From the NCBI GenBank assembly GCA_002256345.1, contig NKIY01000001.1, forward strand, positions 884,194 through 948,193: 64,000 bases of DNA. Direction: 5' to 3'. Below the pieces are notes generated by a model that was given only the letters and a program-made list of their open reading frames with translations, was not told the origin of the DNA and made no database searches. This DNA is from Bradyrhizobiaceae bacterium PARB1 (lineage in GTDB: Bacteria > Pseudomonadota > Alphaproteobacteria > Rhizobiales > Xanthobacteraceae). This document shows, piece after piece, positions 25,234 through 41,207 of this stretch (position 1 is the first letter of the stretch; every line of letters starts with the position of its first letter). The position numbers were made by a program, and so were the translations under genes.

Positions 25234-26764
25234 CTTCTGGCGGATTGTGTTGAAAAACTCCCCTGTTGAAGCGGGGCGCCATCGCTGATTCAATCCCGCT
25301 ATCGGCGGAGGCTGAATCGATGATGGGTCCACAGCAGACTGATCAGGCGGCTCTGTTCTACGAATTCTCGCTGGAGCGACACGTACCAGCCGCCCATATG
25401 CTGCGGAACATCGACCGGTTCGTCGATCTGTCTGTCGTTCGGAGCGAGTTGGCGCCCTTCTACAGTTCGATCGGACGGCCATCGATTGATCCTGAGCTGC
25501 TCGTCCGGATGCTGCTGGTTGGCTACTGTTGCGGCATCCGGTCGGAGCGCCGGTTGTGCGAGGAGGTTCACCTGAACCTCGCTTATCGCTGGTTTTGCCG
25601 TCTTGGCCTCGACGGTGAGGTGCCGGATCATTCCACCTTCTCAAAGAACAGACATGGTCGCTTCCGTGATTGCAATCTCCTGCGCAAGCTGTTCGAGACA
25701 GTAGTGCGACGCTGCATGGCAGAGGGGCTGGTCGATGGAACGGCCTTCGCCGTCGATGCCAGCCTGATCGCTGCCGACGCCAACAAGCAGCGCTCCGCTG
25801 TGGGGACTGAGGACCATGACTGGGACGCGCTTGCCCGGGCGCGGCGGTCCGTCCGCGAGTACCTCGACACACTGGACGAAGCGGCCTGGGGTGCAGCGAG
25901 CGAGACGGTGCCGAAGTTTGTCTCTCGATCCGATCCGGCCGCGCAATGGACCGGGGCTCACAAAGGCCACGCCTTTTTTGCCTACGCCGACAACTACCTG
26001 ATCGATCTGAAGGCTGCGGTGATCGTCGATGTCGAGGCGACACGCGCCATTCGACCGGCCGAGGTCGGTGCTGCACGCACGATGATCGCGCGTACAAAGG
26101 ATCGCTTCGGCATCCATCCCGAGCGCCTAGCTGCCGACAGCGCTTACGGATCAGCCGACATGCTGGCCTGGTTGGTGGACCAGCGTAAAATTGAGCCGCA
26201 CATACCCGTGTTCGACAAATCGGCTCGCGAGGATGGGACGTTTGCCCGCGATGAATTCACCTACGATCGGGAGGCTGACATCTATCGCTGCCCGGCGGGC
26301 AAGCTGCTGACTTCAACTGGAACACTGGTGAATGACGGAGCGACGCTTCACTATCGCGCCAGCAAGCGGGACTGCGACATCTGCGAACTCAAGCCACGGT
26401 GTTGTCCGAAGATGCCAGCTCGCAAGGTACCACGCTCGATCTACGAGAGCGCTCGCGATGTGGCGCGCGGGATCGCCAGAACGGAAGCCTACGTAACCTC
26501 GCGACGTGAACGCAAAAAGATCGAAATGTTGTTCGCTCATCTAAAGCGTATCCTGCGCCTCGACCGGCTTCGTCTGAGAGGTCCTTGCGGTGCTCGCGAC
26601 GAGTTCCTGCTCGCTGCCACCGCTAAGAACCTTCGAAGCTGGCAAAATTGATCCCGACACCGGCTCCGATGCCCATCTGAACTGGGACAGACACTTGCAC
26701 GCCGCTCCTCTGCGCACTGGCCGATAGCCAACTAGCTGACTTGTTCAACACAATCGGCGCTAAG
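25234..26764 (+). mobile_element. IS1182-family insertion sequence, copy 2
   Basis: 1531 bases, same orientation as copy 1. Left end CTTCTGGCGGATTGTGTTGA at 25234; right end, reversed, CTTAGCGCCGATTGTGTTGA at 26764. Together with copy 1 it brackets the oxidase and formate genes. No target duplication is seen. The left flank (25054-25230) is an open frame of unclear nature that the insertion may have interrupted. Confidence 0.8.
25266..26651 (+). CDS. IS1182-family transposase, nearly complete
   Basis: A 461-residue DDE transposase. It has the N-terminal DUF772-like domain (GRPSIDPELLVRMLLVGYCC, EVHLNLAYRWFCRLGLDGEV), first Asp in GTAFAVDASLIAADANKQRS, second in AADSAYGSADMLAWL, zinc-binding CDICELKPRCCP and final Glu in RKKIEMLFAHLKRIL. 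All catalytic residues are in frame. Only the last residues differ: one base is missing (CTTCGAAGC instead of CTTCGAAAGC), so the protein ends NLRSWQN rather than NLRKLAKLIP. It could still be active. The first codon annotated is TTG; an ATG pair lies 54 bases further on. Confidence 0.85.
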   Translation: MKRGAIADSIPLSAEAESMMGPQQTDQAALFYEFSLERHVPAAHMLRNIDRFVDLSVVRSELAPFYSSIGRPSIDPELLVRMLLVGYCCGIRSERRLCEEVHLNLAYRWFCRLGLDGEVPDHSTFSKNRHGRFRDCNLLRKLFETVVRRCMAEGLVDGTAFAVDASLIAADANKQRSAVGTEDHDWDALARARRSVREYLDTLDEAAWGAASETVPKFVSRSDPAAQWTGAHKGHAFFAYADNYLIDLKAAVIVDVEATRAIRPAEVGAARTMIARTKDRFGIHPERLAADSAYGSADMLAWLVDQRKIEPHIPVFDKSAREDGTFARDEFTYDREADIYRCPAGKLLTSTGTLVNDGATLHYRASKRDCDICELKPRCCPKMPARKVPRSIYESARDVARGIARTEAYVTSRRERKKIEMLFAHLKRILRLDRLRLRGPCGARDEFLLAATAKNLRSWQN

Positions 26765-26844
26765 CAGTCATTCAGCCGGAGGTTCTAGTCTTCACAAGCT
26801 CGCTGGGAGCGACGCGGTGGGAAGGGTGGAGTGAGGCCAGCTCT

Positions 26845-26952: not shown

Positions 26953-27349
26953 GAGCATGAACACACAGAGCCTTCGACTCAACCGATGAAACATCGTGAG
27001 ATAAGCGGCGAGGACATTCCGCTCCGGCAGGAAGTGAGTTCGTCGTTAACCATCCAGCCAGGCGAACTCTCTGCATCCAGTTCGGCTGTCAGAATGAATG
27101 TAGGGGCGGTGCTGTCGGTCATCGCTAGACCGGCAATTGGCCAACCTGTCGGCGGATCTGGTTCTGCGTCGAGATAGTTAGCTGCATCGTAAATGCAGTA
27201 GAGTGTGATTCTTTAAATGGCACCGTTATGTCGCAAAAATCGAGATCGGTTAAATTGAGAATGAATAATCGCCGATCGTTGACGTTCAAATCGACAGAGC
27301 GTCGCGCGGACATGCGCGGCGCTCCTACTATGACTGAAGTCTGCCCAGT
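26953..27349. other. About 400 bases with no recognised gene
   Basis: Only short frames without homology, among them a 62-codon minus frame at 27125-27313 (SARRSVDLNVNDRRLFILNL) which lacks family support. AT content is higher than around. Likely debris between the IS and the replication block. Confidence 0.45.
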
Positions 27350-27640
27350 TCAGATCGGCCAAAACTCCATCTGACGCGGGTCGATCTGTGAATCGTGTTT
27401 CTTAGTACGCGTCCGCTGCTTCTTCTGATTTTTGTGCCATTCATTCCAACGGTCCAGCAACTGCGTAGGAACGACGTACCTTGATGTCCCATGGCCATTT
27501 CTGCTGGCGTCCCGGATCAGGGCTAATTCTTTCAGCAAAGTAATTGCCTCCATTGATGTCGGCGTGCGGCCGCGAACGATTCGATCAAATGCTTTGCGCG
27601 CCGCGGTAGGCAGTCCAGTGCAGGGGTGCTGCGTACTCAT
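27350..27640 (-). CDS. 96-residue basic hypothetical protein
   Basis: Starts STQHPCTGLPTAARKAFDRI, then GRTPTSMEAITLLKELALIR, DASRNGHGTSRYVVPTQLLD and a Lys/Arg tail. The start at 27640 follows GGAGTTGAGT; more upstream starts add low-quality residues. The basic C-terminus suggests nucleic acid binding. Nothing known. Confidence 0.5.
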   Translation of the reverse strand: MSTQHPCTGLPTAARKAFDRIVRGRTPTSMEAITLLKELALIRDASRNGHGTSRYVVPTQLLDRWNEWHKNQKKQRTRTKKHDSQIDPRQMEFWPI

Positions 27641-27894
27641 ACTCAACTCCAAAAAATGAGGGTAATCATTGTCTTGGTGAGTGCTCAACTTGTATCTAGG
27701 CATGGTGATAGACAAGCGCGTCGTGAAGGTTCTTGCGATCGAAACTGTGGAGACCAACTAAGAATCTTCGCGATGAGCAGTTAACTGTCGTTAGCTGCCC
27801 ATTAGTACGTAGGAACATGCCGGCGATCTGCTTTGGTTGGACGAGCGACAGTCAACTCCGGCGTTCGCCCTAGAAAATCAGACGCAGCAAAGTT

Positions 27895-28200
27895 TCAGTT
27901 GTAGCTCAACTGTGCTTGTGGAAATGCCGAAAATCTTCTGTCCACCCTCGGCTTCCGGAGCGACGGTCGGACGAACCGGTTGATCACGTCATGGACGGGC
28001 GCTTCGCGGTACGCCGGGTTCGCGGCCACGTTCGACGCGGCCCTGTTGATCAGTTCGGCCGGATCGACACTGGTTTCCCCGGCTTCACGTGCCTCAAGCA
28101 GCGCCGCCATGCAGGCGTTCGCTGCGACGTAGGTCGGAGGCTCGCCGGCCGCCTTCAGCCTTGCCCGGTAGTCGTGATCTCGATTGCGTTTCTCGCTCAT
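27895..28200 (-). CDS. 101-residue hypothetical protein of the mobile block
   Basis: Sequence SEKRNRDHDYRARLKAAGEP, TYVAANACMAALLEAREAGE and AELINRAASNVAANPAY. Helical, without known domain. It is downstream of the replication protein and the 28246 gene on the same strand, so it may be the last gene of that operon. Confidence 0.55.
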   Translation of the reverse strand: MSEKRNRDHDYRARLKAAGEPPTYVAANACMAALLEAREAGETSVDPAELINRAASNVAANPAYREAPVHDVINRFVRPSLRKPRVDRRFSAFPQAQLSYN

Positions 28201-28245
28201 GACCGGCAGCGTCGCAGGCGACGCGGCAGGAAACTGTCCGCTCGC

Positions 28246-28674
28246 CTACGGTCCGGACGGCGGGAAAAAGACTCCGCGGTCGCGCAGCAGGCCGTCCCGT
28301 CGGCGCTTCAGGACGTAGTCGATCTGCTTCCGGTCGTAGCCGGCCGTCATCAGTTCCGAGAACACCGTCCGGACCAGATCAGCGACTCTCAGCTCGGTCC
28401 GACCGGCCTTATCATCGATGCCGTCCATCAGCAGCAGCGCGTCGAGGACCGCCGATGCGACCACGTCGCCCTGCGGTCGCTTTGCGTCGTCGGCCGACTT
28501 GCGCCAGGCGGCGGTCCGCAGTCTGCCTTTGGCTCGCTTGACCTCAATGGGCTGCACCTGACGGCGGCGGGCGGCACGCGGCGAAGCCGGGCGGTCCGGC
28601 GAGCGGGCGAAATGCTCCGCTCGGACGCGGTCGCAATCGGAGATGAGGTCGGCGGTGGAAGGTTTTTTGATCAT
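28246..28674 (-). CDS. 142-residue basic hypothetical protein
   Basis: Begins IKKPSTADLISDCDRVRAEH, then a basic middle (RAARRRQVQPIEVKRAKGRL) and a C-terminal helical part (AVLDALLLMDGIDDKAGRTE, LVRTVFSELMTAGYDRKQID). The tail resembles a small DNA-contacting fold, but no family is certain. It directly follows the replication protein and may assist it. An upstream start at 28758 is possible. Confidence 0.55.
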   Translation of the reverse strand: MIKKPSTADLISDCDRVRAEHFARSPDRPASPRAARRRQVQPIEVKRAKGRLRTAAWRKSADDAKRPQGDVVASAVLDALLLMDGIDDKAGRTELRVADLVRTVFSELMTAGYDRKQIDYVLKRRRDGLLRDRGVFFPPSGP

Positions 28675-28805
28675 GGCCGGAATCTTAAGGGCGGCCGCTG
28701 CAAGTCGGAAGGGAAGAAGAAGGTCAGTCGCGATGACCGGATCGGGAGGCAGGACCATCGATAGTGATGCTGTCCACCGGGCGGGCCTGCGAAGCCGCCC
28801 GTAGC

Positions 28806-31238
28806 TCAGCGCAGCGTCAGCCGGTCCGGATGGAGATGAGATGCGCGCAGCGCGCCGACGGCCGCCCAGAGCTGTTGCGACAGGGGATGGCGCGATCGGG
28901 CAATGATCGGACGTGGATCGTCGTTACCGGGACCGGAGGACCGTTCGGATGGGTTGTCGGCAGGCAGGTTCGAGGTGTTGACCGGATCGATGATCGTCTC
29001 GACCGGCTGGATGGTGGGCTGGTCGGATATCAGATCAGTGGTTCTGACCGGCATAGTGGTAAGGGAAGTGTCCTGCTTTTTATCATGGGCAGTATCGTGG
29101 ACAACGGCCGGGACCGGCATTGGAACGGCGTAGATCATGCGGTTGCGCGCACGTTTTGCAGCGTTCTCGGCTTCCTTGTAGGCCAGCAGGCGCGCGGCTT
29201 CCTCGCGTTCAATCCGTTCCATGATCGAGGGGACGTGTCCGACGGCCGCATCGTAGCGCTGATACGCGTACGACCGGCTCACCACCTTCGTCGCGATCAG
29301 ACGCTTGACGACCGCCGCCTTGTTCGTGAGCCCGAGCATGTTCGCTTGCGCGATCGCTTCGGCGATGCGCGGGAGGCTGGTCTCGCGACGGATGCGCCCG
29401 GTCTCGGTCCCGCCGACGCTCTTCGCCGTCCTCTCGGCCGTCACCGGGTCCGATAGGCGGCGGCCGGCGAAAAACGGGTCACGGGCGACGACCGCTTTGC
29501 AGTCGCGACCGCGGCGTTTTCTGAGAGCGAGGCCGTTCTCGTCCAACTTCCAGACGCGACGGGTGAGGCGACAGCGCAGGCGGAGCATGCGGTCGAAGCC
29601 GGTGCCACCGCCAGTGACGCGCATCGCCTCGTCCCGGATCTGCGTAGCGAGCCATTCGCCGAACGTGTCGCGGTTCGCCCATGCGGCCAGGAACGCCGGA
29701 TTGCGCGTTCGCTGCGCGTTCTTCATGAAGTCGATGACGACGTTGCCGAGCTCGATCCATGCCCGCTGACTGCCGATCGCGTCCTTGAACCCACGCAACG
29801 CCGAGCGCTCGACCATGGCCTCGGTCTTGGCATTCATGTCTATGAGGGGCTCGACCATCGGGGTGCCGCCGCTATCGAGCACCGCCCGCCCTTGTTCGTC
29901 GCGGACTGGTCGTATTGCGTCGCGCCAGTCAGCCAACGACATCCAGTTGTCGTGGATCGAGAAGGTCGCATAGATGAGGCACAACGGGTTTTTCGTACGC
30001 CCGTGGTGAGCGTAGAGCGGATCGGCGCCGATCTCTCCCAGTCGATCGCAGATGCCGCGCTGAACGCGACGCAGCAAGTAAACGAATTTGGCCTGGGCCT
30101 TCTTGTTACCGGTGCCCTTATCCTCATCGTAGAGGTCATTGAGCACTGCGGCATTCGGCGGCAGCCACCAGATGAGATGCGGTCGGATGAGCACGCCATC
30201 GATGATTTTGCATGTGATCAAGTTCGGCCAAAAGCGGCCGTCGGGGATCAGGCGCGCGATGTGCGCCATCAGGTATCCGATCGATTCCCAACATGAGTCC
30301 AATTCCTGGATGATGTAGCTCACCATCCGGGTGAGGAGCTGAACGTAAGGCTTATCAAGCGTCAGGCACTTCGACAGCCCCTCGTTGACGTAAATTTTGT
30401 CGTCGCCCCCGCGCGCCTTCTTGTCAGTCGCTGCCGGAATGCGACCGAGGGACGCGGCGAATGCCGATCGGAAAGGCGCACCATCCGGCAGAACCTCAGC
30501 CATCGCCGGCATGCGATGACCACCAAGCACACCGCCGTCGGTGCGCTGGCCATGCTTCATGCGATCGGCGATGGCATGACTGATCCGGCGATTTTTCGCG
30601 ATCGAGCGCTCTTTCGTTTCCTGTGCGTCGGCGCGCTTCTCCGCTTCCAGCTTCAGCGCCTTCTCGCGTTCCCAGTCCGACAGCCCAGGGGCTTCGCTCG
30701 GCAGCGGCGCTTCGATCTTCTTCTGCTTTCGCTTTTTCGGATTGTTCGCAGGCGCTGCCTCGCGCTCGGCCTTGCGCTCCAGCTTGCGGCGTTCGCGACG
30801 AATCTTCGCGAACCGCTTTTCCGAGCGGGCCTCATCGGCGGCAGTCCAGAAGCCTTGGCAGCCCTGCGGCAGCGCGCCGGCCTCGACGGGATTCAGGATC
30901 GGGATGGTTACATCGCGCGGGTTGAACCTGAAAACACCGGTCGTGTAGCGAGAGCGGTCCTCGGGCGGCGCGGCGACGTGATGCGGCACAGTAGCGAGAT
31001 CGTCGACCATGGAAGGCGGCAGCGCGCGGCCCACAAGACCGCAGCAGCCCGCGGCTTTGAACCGGAGTGCGAGGCGTCCCTCAGGCGAGCCCTCTGGCAT
31101 CGCCGCAGCGATCTGATCCCACTTATGCGTCAGCAACGCGCCGGGAGGCACGTTTGCAAAGGCAGCGTCGACGGTCGACTGGAGCACGGTCGGATGAATC
31201 CTTGGCCAAGGCAGCCAGTCAGCGTCATGGCCCAGCAT
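28806..31238 (-). CDS. Putative replication protein with replicase/primase-like domain
   Basis: An 810-residue protein. N-terminus DWLPWPRIHPTVLQSTVDAA, then a long Lys/Arg/Glu linker (about 155-245: RRERRKLERKAEREAA, PKKRKQKKIE). The middle (about 300-420) contains RPHLIWWLPPNAAV (about residue 350) followed by YLLRRVQRGICDRLGEIGAD and PLYAHHGRTKNPL (about 400). The order H-L-x-W ... L-x-x-x-x-G-A-D-P-x-Y-x-x-x-x-x-K-N-P fits the replicase/primase domain of plasmid replication initiators. Further on lies a helix-turn-helix-like part (LPRIAEAIAQANMLGLTNKA, VVSRSYAYQRYDA), then a disordered tail. The assignment is from motifs only. It is preceded by a 430-base leader with repeats. Confidence 0.6.
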   Translation of the reverse strand: MLGHDADWLPWPRIHPTVLQSTVDAAFANVPPGALLTHKWDQIAAAMPEGSPEGRLALRFKAAGCCGLVGRALPPSMVDDLATVPHHVAAPPEDRSRYTTGVFRFNPRDVTIPILNPVEAGALPQGCQGFWTAADEARSEKRFAKIRRERRKLERKAEREAAPANNPKKRKQKKIEAPLPSEAPGLSDWEREKALKLEAEKRADAQETKERSIAKNRRISHAIADRMKHGQRTDGGVLGGHRMPAMAEVLPDGAPFRSAFAASLGRIPAATDKKARGGDDKIYVNEGLSKCLTLDKPYVQLLTRMVSYIIQELDSCWESIGYLMAHIARLIPDGRFWPNLITCKIIDGVLIRPHLIWWLPPNAAVLNDLYDEDKGTGNKKAQAKFVYLLRRVQRGICDRLGEIGADPLYAHHGRTKNPLCLIYATFSIHDNWMSLADWRDAIRPVRDEQGRAVLDSGGTPMVEPLIDMNAKTEAMVERSALRGFKDAIGSQRAWIELGNVVIDFMKNAQRTRNPAFLAAWANRDTFGEWLATQIRDEAMRVTGGGTGFDRMLRLRCRLTRRVWKLDENGLALRKRRGRDCKAVVARDPFFAGRRLSDPVTAERTAKSVGGTETGRIRRETSLPRIAEAIAQANMLGLTNKAAVVKRLIATKVVSRSYAYQRYDAAVGHVPSIMERIEREEAARLLAYKEAENAAKRARNRMIYAVPMPVPAVVHDTAHDKKQDTSLTTMPVRTTDLISDQPTIQPVETIIDPVNTSNLPADNPSERSSGPGNDDPRPIIARSRHPLSQQLWAAVGALRASHLHPDRLTLR

Positions 31239-31312
31239 TCGTCAAGCAACCGCGCTGCCTACTAATGATGGCATTTCGCGCGAGCTACATGAGCACGAAA
31301 CCTATCGGCGAC

Positions 31313-31413
31313 GATGCAAGATTCAAATCGTGAACACGTCTCCGAGCCCCTGGGAGTCGATGTGTCTGTCGCCGCCGCGGTCACGACCGTCGCCGATCTG
31401 GATGCAAGATTCA
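31313..31413. repeat. Direct repeat GATGCAAGATTCA, two copies
   Basis: Exact 13-base copies at 31313-31325 and 31401-31413, 88 bases apart. A looser copy (ACAAGATTTGCA) lies near 31498. Could be iterons for the replication protein; two copies only, so weak. Confidence 0.5.
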
Positions 31414-31573
31414 GACTGTTCTCAGATCGGACCGAACTCTACAAAAACCGGACACCGAACGACCTGATAGTCGCAATGTTGCATCGTTGGGATCGTACAA
31501 GATTTGCAAAATGCTGTTATTACTACGCTTTTCGACTCCAGTAATGCAAATATTGCACGATCAAAATTAGGAC

Positions 31574-31612
31574 CGACTACGGGCCTATCGTCCAGGATGT
31601 AGTCGATAGCCC
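31574..31612 (-). promoter_or_regulatory. Crossing inverted repeats, possible H-type pseudoknot in the rep leader
   Basis: CGACTAC (31574-31580) pairs with GTAGTCG (31599-31605). GGGCCTATCG (31581-31590) pairs with CGATAGCCC (31604-31612) with one bulged C. The order is A, B, A', B', so the two stems cross, with an 8-base linker. The transcript of the replication gene would contain it about 340 bases before the start codon. Confidence 0.4.
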
Positions 31613-31665
31613 TACAACCTACTCCGGAAACCTGGAAAATATTTTTGGGTTTTCCCCGTAGTTCG

Positions 31666-32100
31666 TCAGCGACCTTTCTTCGGACGCGTCGGAGGGACAC
31701 GACCCTTTGCGGCAGCTCGCAGTCCCGCGAGACCGCCCTTAGGCGGGTCTTCCAGCCAGTCGGTCCCGGCGTCCTTGGGCGCTGCCTTCTCAGGGGGGCG
31801 TATCTCCGCATCGACCTTCTTTCGCCCGATGCTGTCCAGTTGCGCGTCTTCTTTGATGTTTAGGAACAGCAACAAAATTTGCTCCACGTAGAGACTGCGC
31901 GTCATGCGCGCCGCTGCGGCGCATTCGGTAAGGACCTCAAGCAGATCCGGATGCACGCGCAGCACCAGCCGCTCGGACCTGATGTCGAGCGGGTCTCCCG
32001 GTGGGCGGCCGGTCGCGACAAATCCTTTCTGAGCTCGCCGAGGCATCTCAGCCCCCTTGACAGCTTTCGCAGGCTTCCTCGCTCTCGAATCTTTAACCAT
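31666..32100 (-). CDS. Ribbon-helix-helix-like DNA-binding protein
   Basis: A 144-residue basic protein. N-terminal Lys/Arg-rich tail (KDSRARKPAKAVKGAE, PRRAQKG), then a strand-helix-helix core DIRSERLVLRVHPDLLEVLT, ECAAAARMTRSLYVEQILLL, and a flexible Pro/Lys tail ending TRPKKGR. The core fits CopG/Arc-type RHH proteins, which act as repressors, partition proteins or relaxosome accessory proteins. It is upstream of the replication gene on the same strand and divergent from the AAA+ operon, a good place for a regulator of both. Confidence 0.65.
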   Translation of the reverse strand: MVKDSRARKPAKAVKGAEMPRRAQKGFVATGRPPGDPLDIRSERLVLRVHPDLLEVLTECAAAARMTRSLYVEQILLLFLNIKEDAQLDSIGRKKVDAEIRPPEKAAPKDAGTDWLEDPPKGGLAGLRAAAKGRVPPTRPKKGR

Positions 32101-32187
32101 ACCGTAATCGAATCCTTGATTTGTTACACGTTACGTTGCAACGTAAACATACCGAACCTGTCAACAAATTATCTGAGTCCTTGAGCC

Positions 32188-32409
32188 ATGGCGAGTCCCG
32201 ATCGCGATGAATTGCTGATGCTCGTCCTCGAGGACCGGGCCGAGAGCGCGTCTCCCTGGCGGTCGTTCGCGGAGGCCGCGAACGAGGTCATGCGGTGCGT
32301 GATCCGGAGGCGGAATGTCGATTTGGAAGCGAGCGCGGGCAGCGGTCAGGAGATGGAAAATCATGACGAACAACCGAACGCTGCCCGTCCGGCTACTCGA
32401 ACTCGCTGA
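32188..32409 (+). CDS. 73-residue hypothetical protein, first gene of the AAA+ operon
   Basis: Frame ASPDRDELLMLVLEDRAESA, SPWRSFAEAANEVMRCVIRR and DLEASAGSGQEMENHDEQPN. Its last 47 bases overlap the start of the AAA+ ATPase in another frame, as in tightly coupled operons. Divergent from the RHH gene. No family known. Moderately supported by composition and position. Confidence 0.5.
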   Translation: MASPDRDELLMLVLEDRAESASPWRSFAEAANEVMRCVIRRRNVDLEASAGSGQEMENHDEQPNAARPATRTR

Positions 32410-34285
32410 CGACCGTTTCGGCGCCGGCGACATCGCGTGGGTTTTCGTCGGAGATCTCCTCGACGTTCTGGATCAGGATGATCGGCGCGAACTGCGGCTC
32501 GCGATGACCAGCGAAGATTTTGGTGATCATGCGAAGCGCCGGACGCCGATTATCCTGGCCGCGGAGAATCTCAGGCTGGCGAACCATCATGCCGAGGCGC
32601 TCGCGCTGCGGATGCTGGCCGTCCGCTGTTGCGATGCCGACGAACTCGATGGGATCTACGACGCCATCGAGAAGCGTGCGCTCGCCTTCGTTTCGACCGT
32701 CCCGGTCGAGCAGAAGGACAGGGCGGACCGGATCGTCCGAGCGCTGGAAGTCTGGGAAGCGGCGGCGCTCGGCGCGTTCCCAGCGGACGAGCGGTCTTTG
32801 TTCGACAGGGTTGCCGAGCAGGGCGAGCGCCCAATCGATTTCAACATGAAGTTCGTGGACCCCGCCGTGGCCGCCGCCTTGCCGATGCCGCTTGAGCTGC
32901 TTCTGCTGAAGCGCTGGGACGACGCCATCGAGACCGCGTGGCAGCGGACGCAGCTTCTCGCGAGCGAGGGCGACGTGCTGATGATTGAGGCGCTTTTCCG
33001 CCAGCACGGCTACCCGTCCAGGGACGAATGGGCGTCGGCGATTGACATCGTGGTGCAGTCGCTGGATCAGCGCGGCTACGTCGAGCACGCCACCGCCTGG
33101 CGGATGCTGCGGGTCGACGCGCAAGACCCGTTCTCGGTGATGGCGATGCTGCCCCATCTCTATTGGCATCTCGACCGGGCAACGCTGGACGAGTCCACGA
33201 AAAGCGAGCTGCGACACAGGTTGCACTATTGGAATGAGATCGCGAACGGGAAATGGATCGACTCAGAGTTTTCGGTCTTCCGAATCGCCGGCGTCGAAGG
33301 CCCAAACCGCTCGAAGGAGCGGCAAGCCGCGGGCGGCGCGCCCAAGGGAATATGGGCGGCGGTCAATAAGGAGCCGGAGGAAGGCGTTGTCAGCGGCGAG
33401 ACCAAGCTGCTGCCGAGGGGCCTGCCGCCCGGCATCATCGTGATCCCGAAGGCAGGCGCGACGACGCTCCGACGCGATACGCATGGCGAATACCGAGACC
33501 TCGTCGGCCAGCATCTGTCGTTCGTGATGACGCCGAACCTGTCTGAGGTCCGAGCGGCGCTGCTGCGCGAGTATCCGCACGCGGTGCGCGAGATCGGTGT
33601 GCTGCTGCGCGACCTCAAGCAGGGGACGCCAGCCGTTATGAAGCCGATGCTGATCGTCGGCGAGCCCGGCGGCGGCAAGTCGCGCGTGGTCCGGCGGCTT
33701 GGCGAGGCCTTAGGTTTGTTCGTCTACCGCTACGATGCCAGCGCGGCCATGGACAACATGTTCGGAGGCGTCAGCAAGTCGTGGTCGAGCACCGTCCCCT
33801 CGGTGCCGACGCGTGCGCTTGCCATGGCGAAAAGTGCGAATGCCATCGTGATGGTAGACGAGATCGAGAAGGCTGGATCGTCACGGCACAACGGGAATTT
33901 GTGGCAGGCGATGGGGCCGTTTTTGGAACGCGAGACTTCGAGCCGATATCGCGACGTGTCGCTCGACTGCGAGGTGAACCTTGCACACGTCTCCACGATC
34001 GCGACGGCGAACTCGCTCGACGGTTTGCCAGCGTTCCTGCTCGACCGCTTTCGGATCATCCGCTGGCCGATGCCGACGCTCGCGCACCTGCCGCAGCTTG
34101 CAGCCGGCGTCCTGGCGGAGATCGAGCGCGAGACGGACGAGCAAGGATTCAATTTACCGCTGGATCCCGACGAGCTCGAAGCGATCGGCCGCCTCTGGGC
34201 GCGGCAGAAATTCAGCATGCGTCGCCTGCGACGGATGATCGAAGCCACGCTCGACGCGCGCGCAGCAACCGCACCGAGGCACTGA
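32363..34285 (+). CDS. AAA+ ATPase with Lon-like ATPase module and long helical N-terminus
   Basis: A 640-residue cytoplasmic protein. AGGAG precedes the ATG at 32363. Residues 1-300 are helical (repeat-like: ELADDRFGAGDIAWVFVGDL, ENLRLANHHAEALALRML, WDDAIETAWQRTQLLASEG) and probably bind a partner. The AAA+ domain covers about 380-625: Walker A GEPGGGKS (433-440), Walker B VMVDEIEKAG (Asp499, Glu500), sensor 1 STIATANSLDGLP, arginine finger LLDRFRIIRWP, sensor 2 SMRRLRRMIE. The sequence around these is nearest to the ATPase part of Lon, but no protease domain follows. It should act as a remodeller or loader. It heads a run of six genes that overlap by 1-8 bases, in an element with its own replication protein. 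Confidence 0.8.
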   Translation: MTNNRTLPVRLLELADDRFGAGDIAWVFVGDLLDVLDQDDRRELRLAMTSEDFGDHAKRRTPIILAAENLRLANHHAEALALRMLAVRCCDADELDGIYDAIEKRALAFVSTVPVEQKDRADRIVRALEVWEAAALGAFPADERSLFDRVAEQGERPIDFNMKFVDPAVAAALPMPLELLLLKRWDDAIETAWQRTQLLASEGDVLMIEALFRQHGYPSRDEWASAIDIVVQSLDQRGYVEHATAWRMLRVDAQDPFSVMAMLPHLYWHLDRATLDESTKSELRHRLHYWNEIANGKWIDSEFSVFRIAGVEGPNRSKERQAAGGAPKGIWAAVNKEPEEGVVSGETKLLPRGLPPGIIVIPKAGATTLRRDTHGEYRDLVGQHLSFVMTPNLSEVRAALLREYPHAVREIGVLLRDLKQGTPAVMKPMLIVGEPGGGKSRVVRRLGEALGLFVYRYDASAAMDNMFGGVSKSWSSTVPSVPTRALAMAKSANAIVMVDEIEKAGSSRHNGNLWQAMGPFLERETSSRYRDVSLDCEVNLAHVSTIATANSLDGLPAFLLDRFRIIRWPMPTLAHLPQLAAGVLAEIERETDEQGFNLPLDPDELEAIGRLWARQKFSMRRLRRMIEATLDARAATAPRH

Positions 34286-34572
34286 TGACCGAGCATTACA
34301 AAACGGAGGCCCTGGTGAACGCGCTGATGATGACCGGCGCCGGGCCGTCGGCGGAGGCGATCGCGGCGGCGCCGGAGCTGACGGACTGGCGGTATGAGGT
34401 GAACGAACTGACCGGCGTGATCGTGCTGACCGGGCGGAGCGAGGGGCACCCGTCGATCCCGAGCACTGAACTAATGTCGACGACGCGGGTCCGGTACGTC
34501 GAGCCCGAATTTGCGTTCGCCATTACCAGCAATCGCATCTATCGCCTCGGTCCGCGGAGGCCGCGGGGATGA
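34285..34572 (+). CDS. DUF6634-like protein
   Basis: A 95-residue protein whose ATG shares one base with the ATPase stop. It shows the pattern ALMMTGAGPSAEAIAAAPEL, TDWRYEVNELTGVIVLTGRS, EGHPSIPSTELMSTT and FAFAITSNRIYRLGP. The G-P-(T/S)-A-x-x-(L/I)-A-x-A-P-x-L-x-x-W ... G-H-P ... S-T-E-L ... S-x-x-Y-R-L-G order is that of DUF6634, found on rhizobial plasmids and islands. Function unknown. Confidence 0.65.
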   Translation: MTEHYKTEALVNALMMTGAGPSAEAIAAAPELTDWRYEVNELTGVIVLTGRSEGHPSIPSTELMSTTRVRYVEPEFAFAITSNRIYRLGPRRPRG

Positions 34573-34850
34573 GGGCCGGCATCGAGGCATTGATCGAGAA
34601 GCTGCAGCGCGGCTGGAATCCGGACGCGAGGCAAATCTATGTCCCGCAGCAGGACGTGCTGGACTGGTCTTGGTGGCCGAACTCGGAGGCGCAGACTCTG
34701 TTCGTGCGCGGCGTCGATCTCGACGGCGGGATGGTGCTGCATGAAGTCCTGTGGATCGACCGGCACCTGGAATGGGCAGTCGCGCCGTCCGCTTTTCTCT
34801 GGCTTTACGACCCTGAAGAGTCGCAAAAGGTGAGGTATCTCGGTGGCTGA
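34569..34850 (+). CDS. 93-residue hypothetical protein
   Basis: Starts with ATGA overlap to the previous gene. Sequence RAGIEALIEKLQRGWNPDAR, VPQQDVLDWSWWPNSEAQTL, VRGVDLDGGMVLHEVLWIDR and EWAVAPSAFLWLYDPEE. Mixed alpha/beta, Trp-rich, soluble. No known family. Its place inside the overlapping run implies a stoichiometric partner of the neighbours. Confidence 0.6.
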   Translation: MRAGIEALIEKLQRGWNPDARQIYVPQQDVLDWSWWPNSEAQTLFVRGVDLDGGMVLHEVLWIDRHLEWAVAPSAFLWLYDPEESQKVRYLGG

Positions 34851-35106
34851 ATTCGAACGACCATTCGGCGGCTTGCTGCATGCGGCGGAAGAAAAGGTGA
34901 AGCTGCAGGTGGCAATCGACATGATCTCGCGTGTTGTTGAAGCGCGCTTTCCGGAGCGAGGCATCGTCAATCACCTGGTCGCAATGAAGCTGCACGCGGC
35001 CATGAATGAGCTTCTGACAAAGGCGACGTTGGCCAAGACATTCGAGGAAATCTTCGACCTAACGGCAGCTAAGCCGCCTTCACGTAACAAGCGGAAACGA
35101 AAGTGA
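34843..35106 (+). CDS. 87-residue hypothetical protein
   Basis: GTG start, eight bases inside the previous gene, with GAGG upstream. Sequence AEFERPFGGLLHAAEEKVKL, QVAIDMISRVVEARFPERGI, VNHLVAMKLHAAMNELLTKA and a basic tail (PPSRNKRKRK). All helical, probably an oligomerising or nucleic-acid-contacting protein. Unknown function. Confidence 0.6.
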   Translation: MAEFERPFGGLLHAAEEKVKLQVAIDMISRVVEARFPERGIVNHLVAMKLHAAMNELLTKATLAKTFEEIFDLTAAKPPSRNKRKRK

Positions 35107-35660
35107 AGACGTGGGCTGACGTCGATCGTGCTGTCTCGATCGCGCTGCGCGAGATCGGTTTCGTCTTGCGCGCCGCCGACCGGCCCGTCCCGGCGGACGA
35201 GTTCGATGCATGGAAGCGGACGGCTGCCATGGTATTCGGGCTCAATCGATCGTTCCGACTTCTGCAGGACGCCATGCTCGCGATCGCCGAGATCACCGGC
35301 GTAGACGGCTGGGGCGACGCGGACGTCGAGATCGATATGGACTGCCTGTTCGAAGCCGAGGTCCGGCTGCCGAAAGCCGTCGATGCCGCGCGCCGTCTCC
35401 AGGTCTCGGTGCCTGAGAAGGTCGCGTACCACAAGTCGAGATGGGACCAGGACCGGGTGCGTCTGGATCGCACGTATGCGATGGCGCGCGCCGCGCTTGA
35501 AGGGCGCGATGAGGATTGCATCGATGGCGAGGTAGTGATGCTGTGGCGGGTCCTGGGACTGCCGCCGAAGCCGGTAACGCGGTGGCAGCGCGTGAAGCGC
35601 TGGTTCTCGCATCGGCGGTGGCGGGTCTATTTCTGGTGGAAGCATAGGAGAGATCGGTGA
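35103..35660 (+). CDS. 185-residue hypothetical protein with basic aromatic tail
   Basis: GTG start overlapping the previous stop (GTGA). Sequence KTWADVDRAVSIALREIGFV, then KRTAAMVFGLNRSFRLLQDA, MLAIAEITGVDGWGDADVEI. The C-terminal 30 residues (RWQRVKRWFSHRRWRVYFWW, KHRRDR) are strikingly basic and Trp-rich, which suggests membrane-surface or nucleic acid binding. No family known. Intact. Confidence 0.6.
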   Translation: MKTWADVDRAVSIALREIGFVLRAADRPVPADEFDAWKRTAAMVFGLNRSFRLLQDAMLAIAEITGVDGWGDADVEIDMDCLFEAEVRLPKAVDAARRLQVSVPEKVAYHKSRWDQDRVRLDRTYAMARAALEGRDEDCIDGEVVMLWRVLGLPPKPVTRWQRVKRWFSHRRWRVYFWWKHRRDR

Positions 35661-36145
35661 GGACATTCGTGATCGCCGAAATCGGTGGAGACCATCGCAC
35701 GCGAACGTTGCAGTATGATGGGATCCGCCTGATCATTGGCGATGCCGGCAACGACTACGCATTGCATCAGTCGCAGCCGCGACTGGACGTGGAGACGGCC
35801 ACACCGTGGGAGATACTCTCCCTCGTTACGCCGGTTGTCGCGATGGAGGTGAACAGGCGAATTGCCCTCGACGAATTGGCCCAGCGCTGCCGCAAAGGAT
35901 GGAAGGCGACGCCTGGTGAGATACCCTCAAAAGTTCACCAAAGAACCCTGAGCAACGCGAAGCTCGCTGTCGATGGGCTCGCGTATCCGGATGATATGGA
36001 CGGACTTTATTATCTGCCGGCGACCCGCATCATGGGTATAGCGACCGACGGCGGGCGAGGGTGGACCGGCGAGATACTCTGGATCGCCGCCGATCAAAGT
36101 TACGCGGTCTGCGACAACGGATTTTACTGGCTGCCGTCGACATGA
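35657..36145 (+). CDS. 162-residue hypothetical protein, last gene of the overlapping run
   Basis: GTG start overlapping the previous stop by four bases. Sequence RTFVIAEIGGDHRTRTLQYD, GIRLIIGDAGNDYALHQSQP, PWEILSLVTPVVAMEVNRRI and later TRIMGIATDGGRGWTGEILW, YAVCDNGFYWLPS. Beta-rich and soluble. No known domain. A large inverted repeat follows two bases after its stop and may end the operon. Confidence 0.6.
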   Translation: MRTFVIAEIGGDHRTRTLQYDGIRLIIGDAGNDYALHQSQPRLDVETATPWEILSLVTPVVAMEVNRRIALDELAQRCRKGWKATPGEIPSKVHQRTLSNAKLAVDGLAYPDDMDGLYYLPATRIMGIATDGGRGWTGEILWIAADQSYAVCDNGFYWLPST

Positions 36146-36146
36146 A

Positions 36147-36212
36147 GTCGCCGAGTGGCGACATTCAACGGCGATCAATCTCTTGGCCCACAAAATGTCG
36201 CCGCTCGGCAAC
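36147..36212. repeat. 19-base inverted repeat whose arms are themselves hairpins
   Basis: GTCGCCGAGTGGCGACATT at 36147-36165 and AATGTCGCCGCTCGGCAAC at 36194-36212 are inverted with two mismatches. Each arm also folds on itself (GTCGCC-GAGT-GGCGAC). It starts right after the stop of the 35657 gene, so it could act as a terminator, a protein binding site or a transfer/replication site. Confidence 0.6.
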
Positions 36213-36423
36213 ATGGAAATACGTAGTAGATGTGAAGCTAACTACACTTAGCTGCCCTATGGAAAATATTGTTCGCGATCGAGTCCTTGAGGTGTTGACG
36301 CATTCAGAGAGTGGCCTGATGATTCGCGTCGCAGGCGACGTTTAAGAAGCCGGGATACGAACGTCGTGAGCGCAGCACGCGCGAGAGCCAAGCCTGCCCC
36401 CGCACTTTTTCGGAGAAGATGAA

Positions 36424-36807
36424 GTGACATCCAAGCGCTCGCCTCATTGCCCGTCGTGCGGAGCCGAAGCCGGTTTCACTGTCGCATACTCTCCCTATCG
36501 AAGCCGCGGAAACCTTGATGGCGTCGTCATCCGCGAGGTCACCTTTTCTTGCTCGCACAAGAACGATTGTCGCGACGCGAATCTTAGGGTCGCGTGCAAT
36601 TTCACGTTCGATCACAAGGCCGGCACGATCACCCTCTTGGTCGAGGGAAACGAGAGTTGGTTCGAAAACAGGTATGCGCGTCGCGCTGCGGGAGAGCGCG
36701 TCGAAGACCATGCGCCATGGACGTCCGGCGTTTTGCCGAAGGTCGGCGACACCGTGATCATGTTCGGCGAGCCGAAAGTCGTTAAATCCGTAACGGTGGC
36801 TGGCTGA
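36424..36807 (+). CDS. Zinc-ribbon-containing hypothetical protein
   Basis: GTG start after GGAGAAGATGAA. A 127-residue protein: HCPSCGAEAGF (CxxC), then SCSHKNDC with two more Cys after a strand VVIREVTFS, giving one zinc ribbon. The C-terminal half is a beta domain (TITLLVEGNESWFENRYARR, VGDTVIMFGEPKVVKSVTV). Function unknown. Start of the second gene group of the block; the next gene overlaps by one base. Confidence 0.55.
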   Translation: MTSKRSPHCPSCGAEAGFTVAYSPYRSRGNLDGVVIREVTFSCSHKNDCRDANLRVACNFTFDHKAGTITLLVEGNESWFENRYARRAAGERVEDHAPWTSGVLPKVGDTVIMFGEPKVVKSVTVAG

Positions 36808-37274
36808 TGTCTCGCTCCGACATGACTGCTTCCGACAACCGCATTCTGGCTGCGATGGCGGCAGGGTGTCGGGCGACCGAATGCTTTTCGAGCGGCGACA
36901 AAGAGAGATCGTGGTGGGCCTTCTTCGTCGTTCATCCGGACCGCCGCCGTCGGAATCATGGCACCCCAGCGTTCGATAGATTGATAGAAGCTGGCGCAAT
37001 CAAGGTCGGCCGGCGCGTCGCAGATTGGGACGGCCTGAGCAGTCAGCGCCACAAGCTGCTGCTGCTGACCGAGGTCGGAGCCGAGCGTGCATCCACCGTC
37101 CGCGACTTCGATGTCGATCAGCACTTCGCCGGCAAGCGGGTCTGGATGCCGACTGACGAGCATCGGGCCAGCGCATACTATGCGCAGCGCGATCTCGAAA
37201 AGGAACAGATACTCGAAGCGATGGAACGCCTCGGGTACCGGATTCCTCACCCCGATCTTGACCTCCCGTTTTAG
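36807..37274 (+). CDS. 155-residue hypothetical protein
   Basis: ATG shares one base with the stop of the zinc-ribbon gene. Sequence SRSDMTASDNRILAAMAAGC, RSWWAFFVVHPDRRRRNHGT, FDRLIEAGAIKVGRRVADWD. The central part looks like a winged helix (LIEAGAIKV ... HKLLLLTEVGAE), so a DNA-binding role is possible, but it is not proven. Confidence 0.5.
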   Translation: MSRSDMTASDNRILAAMAAGCRATECFSSGDKERSWWAFFVVHPDRRRRNHGTPAFDRLIEAGAIKVGRRVADWDGLSSQRHKLLLLTEVGAERASTVRDFDVDQHFAGKRVWMPTDEHRASAYYAQRDLEKEQILEAMERLGYRIPHPDLDLPF

Positions 37275-37282
37275 GAACGATG

Positions 37283-37657
37283 ATGTCCGAACTGTCCCGC
37301 CGCGATCTCATCGCCGGAGCCGCCGCCACTGTGGCGGTCGCCGTTATGCCTGCGACTGTGCTCGCCGCGGTCGAGCCTCCGCTCGATTCCTACGACTGGA
37401 TGCTGCAGCAGATCGCCCGCGAGGCGCGGCGGCCTTTTCCGCCCGCGCCTTGGGTCGACCGGCAGACGTTCTGCGACGGCGAGTGTCACTGGACTTTTTA
37501 CAAGGCCCGCCTGGAGTGGGTTGGCATCAGGTATGCGACGCTTACGGACGCCGACTTCGCGGATATGGAGAAGCCGTTGCCACCGTCTCCTGACGACTAC
37601 AGCCTCGCCGACCTTGATGACGATGGGATACTGACGCGACCAAAGGCGGAGGAATGA
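37283..37657 (+). CDS. Hypothetical protein with Tat-like signal peptide
   Basis: The protein begins SELSRRDLIAGAAATVAVAV, MPATVLAA, which has a twin-arginine motif (SRRDLI), a hydrophobic stretch and an Ala-x-Ala site. Export by Tat is likely. The mature part (about 95 residues) has DSYDWMLQQIAREARRP, two Cys in FCDGECHW and an acidic tail. No family known. An exported protein inside a mobile block of cytoplasmic proteins is unusual. An ATG three bases earlier (37280) is also possible. Confidence 0.55.
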   Translation: MSELSRRDLIAGAAATVAVAVMPATVLAAVEPPLDSYDWMLQQIAREARRPFPPAPWVDRQTFCDGECHWTFYKARLEWVGIRYATLTDADFADMEKPLPPSPDDYSLADLDDDGILTRPKAEE

Positions 37658-37800
37658 TGCCCGCCCACCAGTGGCACCTCTCGTTCGACCGCGTGATTTG
37701 CCGCGCGTGCGGCGCTCGGTTCTCGGACGGGGACGGGATGGCTTGCAAGGGCACCGGGAAGGTGAGGCCGCGGGCCACGGCCGTCAGACCGGTGGCGGAA
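37657..37800 (+). pseudogene. 5' fragment of a small Cys-containing protein (tentative)
   Basis: An ATG overlapping the previous stop gives PAHQWHLSFDRVICRACGAR then FSDGDGMACKGTGKVRP, which looks coding (CxxC and a third Cys). The frame stays open to 38352, but beyond about 37800 it covers the methyltransferase tail in another frame and looks like noise. A deletion may have fused this start to foreign DNA. Confidence 0.35.
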
Positions 37801-37837
37801 CTCGGACGCGTGATTACTGTATGTTCACAAGTGGTCC

Positions 37838-38023
37838 CGCTTGATCTCGTCGCGGGAGACCGCGCGATTGATGGGACTTCCGGACACCTACCGGTTGCCG
37901 CCGAACTACAACGAGGCGTACCATCTAACAGGGGACGGAGTCGTCGTCCCCGTGGTGCGCCACCTGGCCGAGAACATCTTCGAACCGATCTTGGCTCCCT
38001 TCCGAGTGCGCGCCGCAGCCTAA
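37838..38023 (+). pseudogene. C-terminal remnant of a DNA (cytosine-5)-methyltransferase
   Basis: The frame reads LISSRETARLMGLPDTYRLP, then NYNEAYHLTGDGVVVPVVRH and LAENIFEPIL. This is the conserved end of C5 methyltransferases (motifs IX-X: R-E-x-A-R-L-x-G-x-P-D-x-Y and G-x-G-V-x-x-P-V). The first about 300 residues with the Pro-Cys catalytic loop and target recognition domain are absent. It is a relic of a modification gene carried by the element. Confidence 0.75.
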
Positions 38024-38196
38024 GCTGGGGTCCAATGTCTGCGCCTATCATCCCGTGCGAGAAGAACGCCGATCGCGAACGAAGTCCTATGCGACATCGC
38101 TCGACGACGCCAAGGCCGCGTTCAAGGACCGATGGGAGCGTCTGCTGCAGCAGGGCGGCGTGCCGGCGCATCTACGCTGAGCCGGCAGAGTGCCGG

Positions 38197-38403
38197 TTAG
38201 TTGGCTCGGTTCTCGAGTTGCCGGATCGCCGCTTTGGCTTGCCTGGTTCCGACCAACGAAAGGCCGAGCTGCCGCGCCATCTTCCGCACGGAGCCGGTTT
38301 TCCTGTTCAGCGCGGCCGCCGCGCGAACTACCGATGCGCCTTCGCTCGATAGTTTCCGCAGCCGCTCGATGTCGGCCTCGGTCCAGCTACGACTGTTCGT
38401 CAT
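38197..38403 (-). CDS. Small GcrA/SANT-like HTH protein
   Basis: A 68-residue protein: TNSRSWTEADIERLRKLSSE, GASVVRAAAALNRKTGSVRK, MARQLGLSLVGTRQAKAAIR. The W-T-E-x-D ... A-A-x-L-N-R-x-x-x-S-V-R-K-x-A-R-x-L-G pattern is that of GcrA-like DNA-binding proteins in rhizobia. Paralogue of the broken gene at 10853-11105. Probably a small regulator. Confidence 0.7.
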   Translation of the reverse strand: MTNSRSWTEADIERLRKLSSEGASVVRAAAALNRKTGSVRKMARQLGLSLVGTRQAKAAIRQLENRAN

Positions 38404-38413
38404 GTCTATTCCG

Positions 38414-38602
38414 CTACTTCGGTGGCTGCAGGGCCGGCGAGTTCGCCCACTTTTCTATCTTGGCGAAGAGCTCTTCCTGCAACGCCAGCTCGTCGTGCCG
38501 GTCGCGTTCGGCAGGTGCGACCTTGCTCGCGCCGCCAGCATCTGCTTCGATCTTGCGGAGCGGCTTCTCGGATCGTGCAATATGGTTTCGACGCTCAAAC
38601 AT
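38414..38602 (-). CDS. 62-residue hypothetical protein
   Basis: Sequence FERRNHIARSEKPLRKIEAD, then ERDRHDELALQEELFAKIEK and WANSPALQPPK. Charged, helical and soluble. It lies 11 bases upstream of the HTH gene on the same strand, so both may be one transcript. Unknown function. Confidence 0.5.
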   Translation of the reverse strand: MFERRNHIARSEKPLRKIEADAGGASKVAPAERDRHDELALQEELFAKIEKWANSPALQPPK

Positions 38603-38772
38603 TCACAGCGCCTCTCTGTCGGATGAAATCTGGAGGGCGGGCGAAATTTAGCGGGTCATCAGGGACGACCGCTGACGCATCGGACACCTGCGCGGGAGCG
38701 GAGTCCAGCGATCTTTTATTTCTTATTTCTGGAACATATCGCCCGCGAGCGCTTCTCGCTGTCGAGGTGCGG

Positions 38773-39455: not shown

Positions 39456-39896
39456 CTAAGCGCTGCGCCATTCCGGCCAGCACCCATCGTCATCGCGGTT
39501 GCCCGTCCGCGACTGGCAGCCGCCCTCAAGTAGGGTCTTCCCGACCTCCTTCCAGACAGCATGCTCGCCGTAGAGGCGCAGCGCGTCGGCCGTCTGGATC
39601 TCGACGATCCGGAAGCAGCGGAGGCACTCGACGCGCAGCACCGGCCGCGGGATCTCTGACAGCCGCCGGTTCTGAATTGGGATGCCCGGCCTGGCGCGAG
39701 CCCGAGGGTCGCTCAGGATGGCGTCCCAGTAAGCGTCGGGCATGGGGTCGGCCGGGCCGATGGCGTCCGTAGTATGTACACCATCGCTAACTCTCTGATT
39801 TTGCTGAGCGGCCCGCTGCATGTTGCGCGCAGTGTCCTCGGCACGGGTTTGCTTCTCGGTGGGGAATCTCCAGTCGGCCACACGTCGTCCAGCCAT
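39456..39896 (-). CDS. Cys-containing hypothetical protein
   Basis: A 146-residue protein with PVLRVECLRCFRIVEIQTAD then YGEHAVWKEVGKTLLEGGCQ and DDDGCWPEW. The four conserved Cys (two as CLRC) may bind zinc. The first half is polar and variable. This family is typical of Bradyrhizobium islands. Function unknown. Confidence 0.65.
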   Translation of the reverse strand: MAGRRVADWRFPTEKQTRAEDTARNMQRAAQQNQRVSDGVHTTDAIGPADPMPDAYWDAILSDPRARARPGIPIQNRRLSEIPRPVLRVECLRCFRIVEIQTADALRLYGEHAVWKEVGKTLLEGGCQSRTGNRDDDGCWPEWRSA

Positions 39897-40104: not shown

Positions 40105-40923
40105 TCAGAAAGGCCGCGGCCGCGGCGTCCAGTCCGGAAGCTCGACGACGAGATCCTCGATGAAGCCGGCGTTCTCTGACATCCCGACGCCGCGCGCGTA
40201 GCCGCGGGGATTGCAGACGATGCGGGTGGAGCCGACTTCGTAGTCGTGGTTGTCGTGAACGTGCCCGTGCAGCCAGAGCGCAGGCTGGTGCTCCGCGATG
40301 ACGTCGGACAGGTCGCTGATGAAGCTTGCGTTCAAGGCGCCGTCATTGTCGTAGCGTTCATGCAATGACCCTGGATGCGGAGCGTGGTGGGTGACGACTA
40401 CGGTAGGGCCGTCGTGATTCTCCGCCAGGCGATCGGTCATCCACCGCCGCTCGCGCCAGTGACGCTCGAAGGCCTCGCGCGGCGTGAGCGGGCGAGGGAA
40501 GTCGCCGCCCTCGGCGACCGTAATGAAGCGGTGGTCGTTGATGTTTCCGCCGGCGCGGAATCCTTCGAGCTGCGACCGGGCCATGAAGAGGTAGTCCGTC
40601 CAAAGCGTGCAGCCGACGAAGCGCACGCCGTCGATCACGGGCACCTCGTCCGCATCTAGAAAAGTCACATTGGTGCCGCGACACGCGCCGCGGATCAGCG
40701 ATGCCACGTCCTGCAAGAGGCCGCGATAGTATTCGTGGTTGCCGGCGACGAACATGACGGGACGGTCGCGCAGCGCCTTCTGCCCGAGCAGCCAATCGAC
40801 TGCCGCCGGTCCTCGACCGATATCGCCGGCGAAGACCGCGACGTCGAAGTCGAGACCTTGGGGGATGTCGTAGCCGTGCGGGCCCATCTCGCCATGCAGA
40901 TCAGAGGCCGTGAAAATTCTCAT
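40105..40923 (-). CDS. Calcineurin-like metallophosphoesterase
   Basis: A 272-residue protein. It has the full metal-site set of the family: ASDLHGE (D-x-H), AGDIGRGPAAVDWLL (G-D), VAGNHEYYRGLLQ (G-N-H-E), VVVTHHAPHPGSLH (H) and WLHGHVHDNHDYEVG (G-H-x-H). The substrate is unknown; members are phosphodiesterases or nucleotidases. Cytoplasmic, no signal peptide. It stands alone near the edge of the mobile block. Confidence 0.85.
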   Translation of the reverse strand: MRIFTASDLHGEMGPHGYDIPQGLDFDVAVFAGDIGRGPAAVDWLLGQKALRDRPVMFVAGNHEYYRGLLQDVASLIRGACRGTNVTFLDADEVPVIDGVRFVGCTLWTDYLFMARSQLEGFRAGGNINDHRFITVAEGGDFPRPLTPREAFERHWRERRWMTDRLAENHDGPTVVVTHHAPHPGSLHERYDNDGALNASFISDLSDVIAEHQPALWLHGHVHDNHDYEVGSTRIVCNPRGYARGVGMSENAGFIEDLVVELPDWTPRPRPF

Positions 40924-41100: not shown

Positions 41101-41130
41101 GCGTAACATGCTGACGTGGCTGCAAATTTT

Positions 41131-41207
41131 TGGTAGCGGGAGAGGGACTCGAACCCCCGACCCCAGGATTATGATTCCCGTGCTCTAACCAGCTGAGCTA
41201 CCCCGCC
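41131..41207 (-). tRNA. tRNA-Met (anticodon CAT)
   Basis: The minus strand folds into a full cloverleaf: acceptor GGCGGGG, D-arm GCTCAGCTGGTTAGAGC, anticodon arm with CAT in the loop between CGGGAAT and AATCCTG, T-arm GGGGGTTCGAGTCCCTC and encoded CCA. 77 bases. The accessory block lies on its 3' side, as is usual for tRNA-integrated elements. Confidence 0.95.

Follow-up and report, generated by a model that had tools for sequence, protein, structure and literature searches.

The candidate replication module described here lies in a 64-kb stretch of the genome of Bradyrhizobiaceae bacterium PARB1 (the window; C22:884194-948193 of genome G000, with coordinates given as window positions unless a contig is named), near one end of a 145-kb chromosomal island. 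It consists of a rep gene and a ribbon-helix-helix (RHH) gene that are divergent from an operon led by an AAA+ ATPase. The open reading frames (ORFs) predicted for the module in a first-pass annotation, made from the sequence alone, were all present at the positions given there:

28806..31238, minus strand, 810-aa Rep, a remote ColE2-type or archaeo-eukaryotic primase (AEP)-like replicase, by remote homology through relatives
31239..31665, gap between the rep and RHH genes, bearing palindromic sites of the TGCAA type, a candidate operator for RHH or origin region
31666..32100, minus strand, RHH (CopG-like) protein, 144 aa
32188..32409, plus strand, 73-codon gene with an LEDRAES motif
32315..34285, plus strand, Lon-like AAA+ ATPase, 656 aa, without a protease domain (start may be 32363)
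34285..34572, plus strand, DUF6634 protein (PF20339, 4.5e-08)
34569..34850, plus strand, 93-aa protein with a domain in common with the C-terminal part of the 35657-36145 product
34843..35106, plus strand, 87-aa protein
35103..35660, plus strand, 185-aa protein with a basic Trp-rich tail
35657..36145, plus strand, 162-aa protein

Matches to the ATPase (E ≤ 1e-20) were found in 49 of the 391 genomes of the family sample, at 65 places including the window's own. Forty of the 64 other places were fetched, along with three plasmid regions; the 16 relatives referred to below (L052-L066 and the plasmid locus L072) were picked as the best ATPase matches. A Rep homologue lies beside the ATPase in 11 of these relatives (tblastn or profile), an RHH gene is divergent from it in 13, and DUF6634 is present in 12 (clustering). 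The genes 3' of DUF6634 vary, with the domain of the 93-aa and 162-aa proteins recurring in 6/16 relatives (five by clustering and L054 by tblastn), the tail of the 185-aa protein matched in one (L052, 48% over 54 aa), and the 87-aa protein matched in 0/16 and without a relative in any fetched locus. Neighbour cluster counts, here and for the Rep-free loci below, rest on a simple ORF picker. The first-pass annotation had asked whether the gene order recurs elsewhere, and it does for Rep, RHH, ATPase and DUF6634. Its six operon genes do overlap by 1-8 bases (successively 1, 4, 8, 4 and 4 nt from the ATPase onward), and its proposal that all six act in one complex is not borne out, given the variation after DUF6634. 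Pfam and NCBIfam name only the ATPase and DUF6634 among the module proteins at meaningful E-values; the call of an RHH protein is supported by RHH_1 matches in six of 11 RHH relatives (best, 2e-4), the window RHH protein itself giving no match to this family.

The affiliation of Rep comes through its relatives. Two of nine aligned Reps matched PF03090 (Replicase) at E ≤ 1, the better being that of L052 (1.2e-5, 25.8 bits, just under the cut-off of 26), and a homologue from Acidiphilium passed the cut-off (7e-9, 36.3 bits). The Acidiphilium homologue is annotated as a plasmid replication initiation protein and resembles the Reps of 4-kb enterobacterial plasmids; the 28 non-alphaproteobacterial records that it matched, mostly small enterobacterial plasmids, are read as its ColE2-type relatives. 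The window Rep is homologous to such annotated plasmid replication initiation proteins. Across the nine aligned Reps D314, P353-H354, G404 and D406 are invariant and the second acid of the acidic pair varies (D or E); D314, H354 and D406 are presumably the AEP-like acidic pair, histidine and third acidic residue. What had been noticed as an 810-residue replicase/primase-like protein is, judged from these alignments, a remote ColE2-type (primase-like) replicase. ColE2 Rep is described, in the portion of PMC4538821 consulted, as an AEP that makes an RNA primer at the plasmid origin.

A profile of the nine Reps gave matches at 16 places in 14 of the 391 family genomes. All 11 of the long Reps start 2.3-3.5 kb from an ATPase start, nine of them being the profile's own rows and two (G181 and G159) independent cases. 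Ten of these 11 are long matches, three of them read through one stop in the search frame; the eleventh is truncated at a contig end, and one further Rep piece is probably its remainder. In the order sample (347 genomes), a full-length Rep was found in the window's own genome only, with five further Rep places in four other genomes (frames of 472-696 aa, partial profile matches); an ATPase profile search of this sample was swamped by apparently genuine Lon frames of ~800 aa. Among 72,556 plasmid records, the Rep of a Roseomonas plasmid matched six alphaproteobacterial records, two of which were matched by the window Rep, and all six are among the 56 records that carry the ATPase (query, relative L065; E ≤ 1e-12). 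In the Roseomonas record (NZ_CP147878.1), a helix-turn-helix regulator, ATPase and Rep lie side by side at 35293-39816. The same plasmid carries capsid, portal, tail and terminase genes and is apparently a phage-plasmid using this type of replicon.

Shorter Reps were also found near integrases. In L107, L108 and L109 a Rep of ~475 aa lies directly beside a Phage_integrase ORF (1e-7, 5e-8 and 6e-5, the last below the cut-off), which supports an integrative element with its own replicon there too; integrase matches also lie near two of the order-sample Reps (L124 and L125), that of L124 ~1 kb before the Rep. L107-L109 and L124, with a Rep of ~475 aa near a large integrase, are probably smaller replicating integrative elements. 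Another locus (L106, in G038) has an RHH gene, two DUF6634 genes and a 546-aa Rep, with no ATPase match.

The ATPase belongs to the AAA family (PF00004, 9e-11) and aligns with the ATPase part of Lon (TIGR00763, 4.6e-13, far short of the Lon cut-off). As the first-pass annotation had it, the protein is Lon-like without a protease, for the match covers only 356-554 in a profile of 795 positions, just 13 residues follow it and the C-terminal protease domain of Lon is not present. Its family matches are of Lon-type AAA+ and include no ParA or ParM family. Sixteen aligned sequences share invariant K455, D515-E516, N566, R578, R580 and R636, which we take to be catalytic motif positions, and an invariant C-terminal R655-H656. 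The DUF6634 assignment is confirmed by PF20339, and in the family sample DUF6634 lies near an ATPase (≤4 kb) at 27 of 59 DUF6634 places, or 25 of 65 ATPase places. A search of the ATPase against genome contigs gave no relative, viral contigs held at least five weak relatives of the ATPase core among the matches listed, and phage records gave seven matches, all to the ATPase core.

The 73-codon gene overlaps the ATPase by 95 nt if the latter starts at 32315; the start may instead be at 32363, with a putative GGAG upstream, which would give a 47-nt overlap. The motif (L/V)x1-2(E/D)DR(A/L)E(S/F/N/G/C), written after examples had been viewed, occurs 14 times in the 641,012 six-frame codons of the 17 loci (the window and its relatives), as a single copy in each of 14 loci and always at the ATPase 5' end, and the gene, noticed earlier for its overlap with the ATPase start, looks real by this sequence measure. 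Nine loci have the motif in a different frame from the ATPase (for L062 as worked out by frame arithmetic), and in five relatives (L055, from the alignment, L057, L061, L063 and L064) motif and ATPase share one frame, a pattern which suggests that the microprotein and the ATPase act together.

The rep-RHH regions of the relatives are rich in a 13-bp palindrome, TTCGA-N3-TCGAA (up to two mismatches), with 41 sites in 5,411 bp compared to 133 in 260,031 bp elsewhere, a motif that was read from the same regions in which it was counted. For this count the bounds of L055-L057, L061-L064 and L072 were hand-set, the shuffles keep base content only, and L058, L060 and L066, which are without RHH and Rep, were left out. 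At least two sites are present in 12 of the 13 relatives, L063 having one. L106, with its RHH gene and shorter Rep, has eight palindromes in the 900 bp before rep, and nine Rep loci without RHH have none in eight cases and one in the other (absence of RHH at Rep loci was judged by tblastn only, and L109 has a 37-aa match at 0.001). Palindromes are present with RHH and nearly absent without it, and the sites therefore follow the RHH protein. The rep-RHH region of the window has no TTCGA-type sites; its palindrome is built on TGCAANATT, and all four matches to this pattern in the 64 kb lie at 31315-31557 in the rep-RHH gap, the pattern having been picked after looking and the count alone not being significant (11 of 100 shuffles reach four). 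Tandem Repeats Finder, run on 27000-38000, gave four short low-score arrays, none in the gap.

The island in which the module lies is bounded by a tRNA gene:

41129..41175, attR, attachment site, a 47-bp repeat with an identical copy at G000 C22:780054-780100
41131..41207, minus strand, tRNA-Met gene, integration target

Elsewhere in the genome the 3' end of the tRNA-Met gene is repeated exactly just once (C22:780056-780080), inside the perfect 47-bp repeat, and the two repeats are 145,268 bp apart from start to start. The module lies near one end of the island and the integrase at the opposite end, which is outside the window together with the second repeat. The integrase ORF (a 622-aa frame) starts ~130 bp inward of the second repeat and matches Phage_integrase (PF00589) at 1.4e-4, its 22.1 bits falling short of the 27.1-bit cut-off. 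A tRNA-integrated island should have an integrase and be flanked on either side by a direct repeat of the tRNA 3' end, and both features are present here. In 13 other genomes with the module, a relative of the integrase (E ≤ 3e-89) was found in four (G135, G374, G159 and G046), a weak match in two (5e-21 and 1e-11) and none in seven, the latter including four with the module at Ser, Tyr or Lys tRNAs. Next to the integrase, each of the four genomes with an E ≤ 3e-89 match has 31-48 bp of the tRNA-Met 3' part repeated; G135 and G159 have the integrase and the module on separate contigs, and in G374 the tRNA, module, integrase and second copy lie on one contig within ~46 kb, with the anatomy of the window's island. 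Eight of the 17 loci have a tRNA (Met, Ser, Tyr or Lys) downstream of the ATPase, all in one orientation with the 3' end facing the module; set aside in this count were a Thr tRNA, the second one of L055, and a 'tRNA-Stop' call of L065.

The module probably serves an integrative element as its plasmid-like core for replication and maintenance. This agrees with the first-pass suggestion of a replication/partition system of such an element, for which the 47-bp tRNA-Met repeats, integrase, Rep and RHH protein speak. From the anatomy, the integrase would recombine the two repeats and release the island as a circle. Starting near the rep-RHH region, replication of this circle would depend on primers made by Rep as a long ColE2-type primase, and would keep the element alive outside the chromosome until reintegration. 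The RHH protein would bind the palindromes between rep and its own gene, as is proposed because RHH and palindromes co-occur, and would so control Rep synthesis and possibly segregation. In the weakest step, the divergent ATPase, coupled to the microprotein and DUF6634, would remodel the nucleoprotein complex of the replicon, with the Rep-origin complex or a helicase-loading step as examples of its target. Such remodelling is, tentatively, the most likely role of the ATPase operon, which we favour as a replication partner.

Several observations weigh against this interpretation. In the sequence analysis a replication origin was not located and no excised form was seen, and no att copy was found around the tRNAs of the other loci within the fetched 13-20 kb. 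Searches of Pfam, NCBIfam, PADLOC and PHROG gave no family for the window Rep at E ≤ 1, and the Rep profile found no usable PDB chain among solved structures (best, 0.0065 over 18 residues). The linkage of long Reps, beyond the profile's own rows, counts two cases, and the ATPase, with its 65 family places, is commoner without Rep than with it. Shorter Reps without the ATPase exist, both at four other family places (frames of 476-568 aa, no ATPase nearby) and at the five further order-sample places, which have no ATPase, RHH or DUF6634 match within ~10 kb (tblastn); the pairing therefore belongs to the long Reps of the family sample and not to all Reps. On plasmids, Rep and ATPase adjoin in the Roseomonas record only and are separated by ~11, 21, 28, 41 and 42 kb in the other five; one of the six ATPases is truncated (31% covered), and three of the six plasmids are from Acidiphilium, so that the records represent about four lines. 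Besides the circularity of the TTCGA count, a scan with the palindrome picked separately for each locus ranked the rep-RHH region first only in L056, L059, L065 and the window, and the window's result there (n = 2 sites) was no better than shuffles.

Other genes lie around the module and across the island:

28246..28758, minus strand, 170-aa basic protein adjoining rep on the same strand, clustering with a gene in 9/16 relatives
39456..39896, minus strand, 146-aa protein, clustering in 8/16 relatives
40105..40923, minus strand, metallophosphoesterase beside the attachment site (PF00149, 7.6e-11), its cluster including 4/16 relatives

The 170-aa protein has no Pfam family, one member of its cluster having given one chance-level match. 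A second metallophosphoesterase-like gene near the integrase end of the island (G000 C22:787380-788306; 24% identity match) mirrors the one beside attR. The island of G374 has a patatin-like phospholipase gene (L095 7299-8510; 2.3e-17) with no PADLOC match. Within the window, two direct copies of an insertion sequence (14620-16150 and 25234-26765, 89% identical) flank genes for cytochrome oxidase, molybdopterin oxidoreductase and a formate/nitrite transporter, and the segment may be a composite transposon within the island.

Such insertion sequences inside the island could also be taken as signs of a degraded, immobile relic in which the module is a chance survivor. The integrase below its Pfam cut-off would fit this, as would the lack of any match in the G000 and G374 islands to seven type IV secretion system and relaxase queries (six VirB/VirD4 and one LPD7) or to a VirB4 part, a weak test in which FtsK-type Tra proteins were unsearched. 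However, the 47-bp repeat is perfect, the integrase, Rep and ATPase frames are open with raised third-position GC, and the conserved residues of Rep and ATPase are kept, which makes a relic improbable. The RHH protein and palindromes might instead serve partition, as a centromere system for which the AAA+ protein is the motor, since the ATPase gene is divergent from RHH and some plasmid centromeres consist of an RHH protein plus a repeat cluster, an anatomy that is matched here. The ATPase is, however, a Lon-like AAA+ and not of the ParA/ParM type, and it is common without RHH; a partition system of this kind we hold to be quite improbable.

The 30 loci with no Rep or RHH match to the window proteins (L032-L051, L067-L071, L073 and L074, plus L058, L060 and L066 re-read) bear on whether the ATPase-DUF6634 operon is instead a separate defence or anti-defence cassette riding mobile elements, with Rep and RHH as mere carriers. 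Genes that accompany the ATPase at these loci encode a metallophosphoesterase (14 loci), DUF6634 (11), a GIY-YIG-like protein (11; Pfam 0.008, below the cut-off), DUF2130 (10) and an exonuclease (three), and the neighbours include the PADLOC candidate families PDC-S14 (1.3e-26), PDC-S48 (1.9e-9) and PDC-S10 (1.6e-8), the last of which is also matched by the metallophosphoesterase of the window (8.7e-11). The module itself fares differently, in that PADLOC 2.0.0 gave as sole match among 10 module proteins the ATPase at E 0.038, with no family for DUF6634 or the small genes and so no known anti-phage component, and the long Reps found all adjoin the ATPase. A cassette of this kind therefore seems rather unlikely, and the ATPase-based defence system raised in the first-pass annotation finds no support in the PADLOC result for the module proteins.

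With the module as the replicon of an integrative element, the ends, integrase and core are defined for a family of alphaproteobacterial islands with a replicon of their own, which opens excision, replication and the role of the unstudied ATPase-DUF6634 pair to direct tests. Should Rep require the ATPase as a partner, this would be a new way of starting plasmid-like replication. More speculatively, and doubtful at present, these loci might represent a class of ATPase-assisted replicons that combine a long ColE2-type primase with a Lon-derived AAA+ remodeller, an EDRAES microprotein, DUF6634 and an RHH switch on a palindrome cluster, variants of which would serve alphaproteobacterial integrative elements, plasmids and a phage-like plasmid. 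The combination was not found described in the literature searched (titles and the starts of abstracts of the top-ranked papers, with subscription papers and preprints outside its scope), and DUF6634 had no mention in the literature collection searched.

The closest known counterpart of Rep is the ColE2-type Rep (PF03090), likened by remote homology through relatives and by the conserved acidic, PH and GAD positions; the window Rep is much longer than ColE2 Rep and lies in a chromosomal island beside an ATPase, with RHH and palindromes. The AAA+ module of the ATPase aligns with that of Lon protease, whereas the protein ends after the Lon-ATPase-aligned region with its own invariant RH end. As a whole, the island resembles the actinomycete integrative and conjugative elements (AICEs), which, in the part of PMC3218068 consulted, have an integrase and their own replication protein, partly Prim-Pol proteins; these belong to a different phylum, and the likeness is one of description. 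It likewise resembles SGI1, a genomic island with plasmid-like replication according to the parts of PMC7826253 and PMC8409611 consulted, though SGI1 is helper-dependent and integrates at trmE, and here too the likeness is by description. Islands with their own replicon are thus already known from AICEs and SGI1, and the module of the window is a variant combination.

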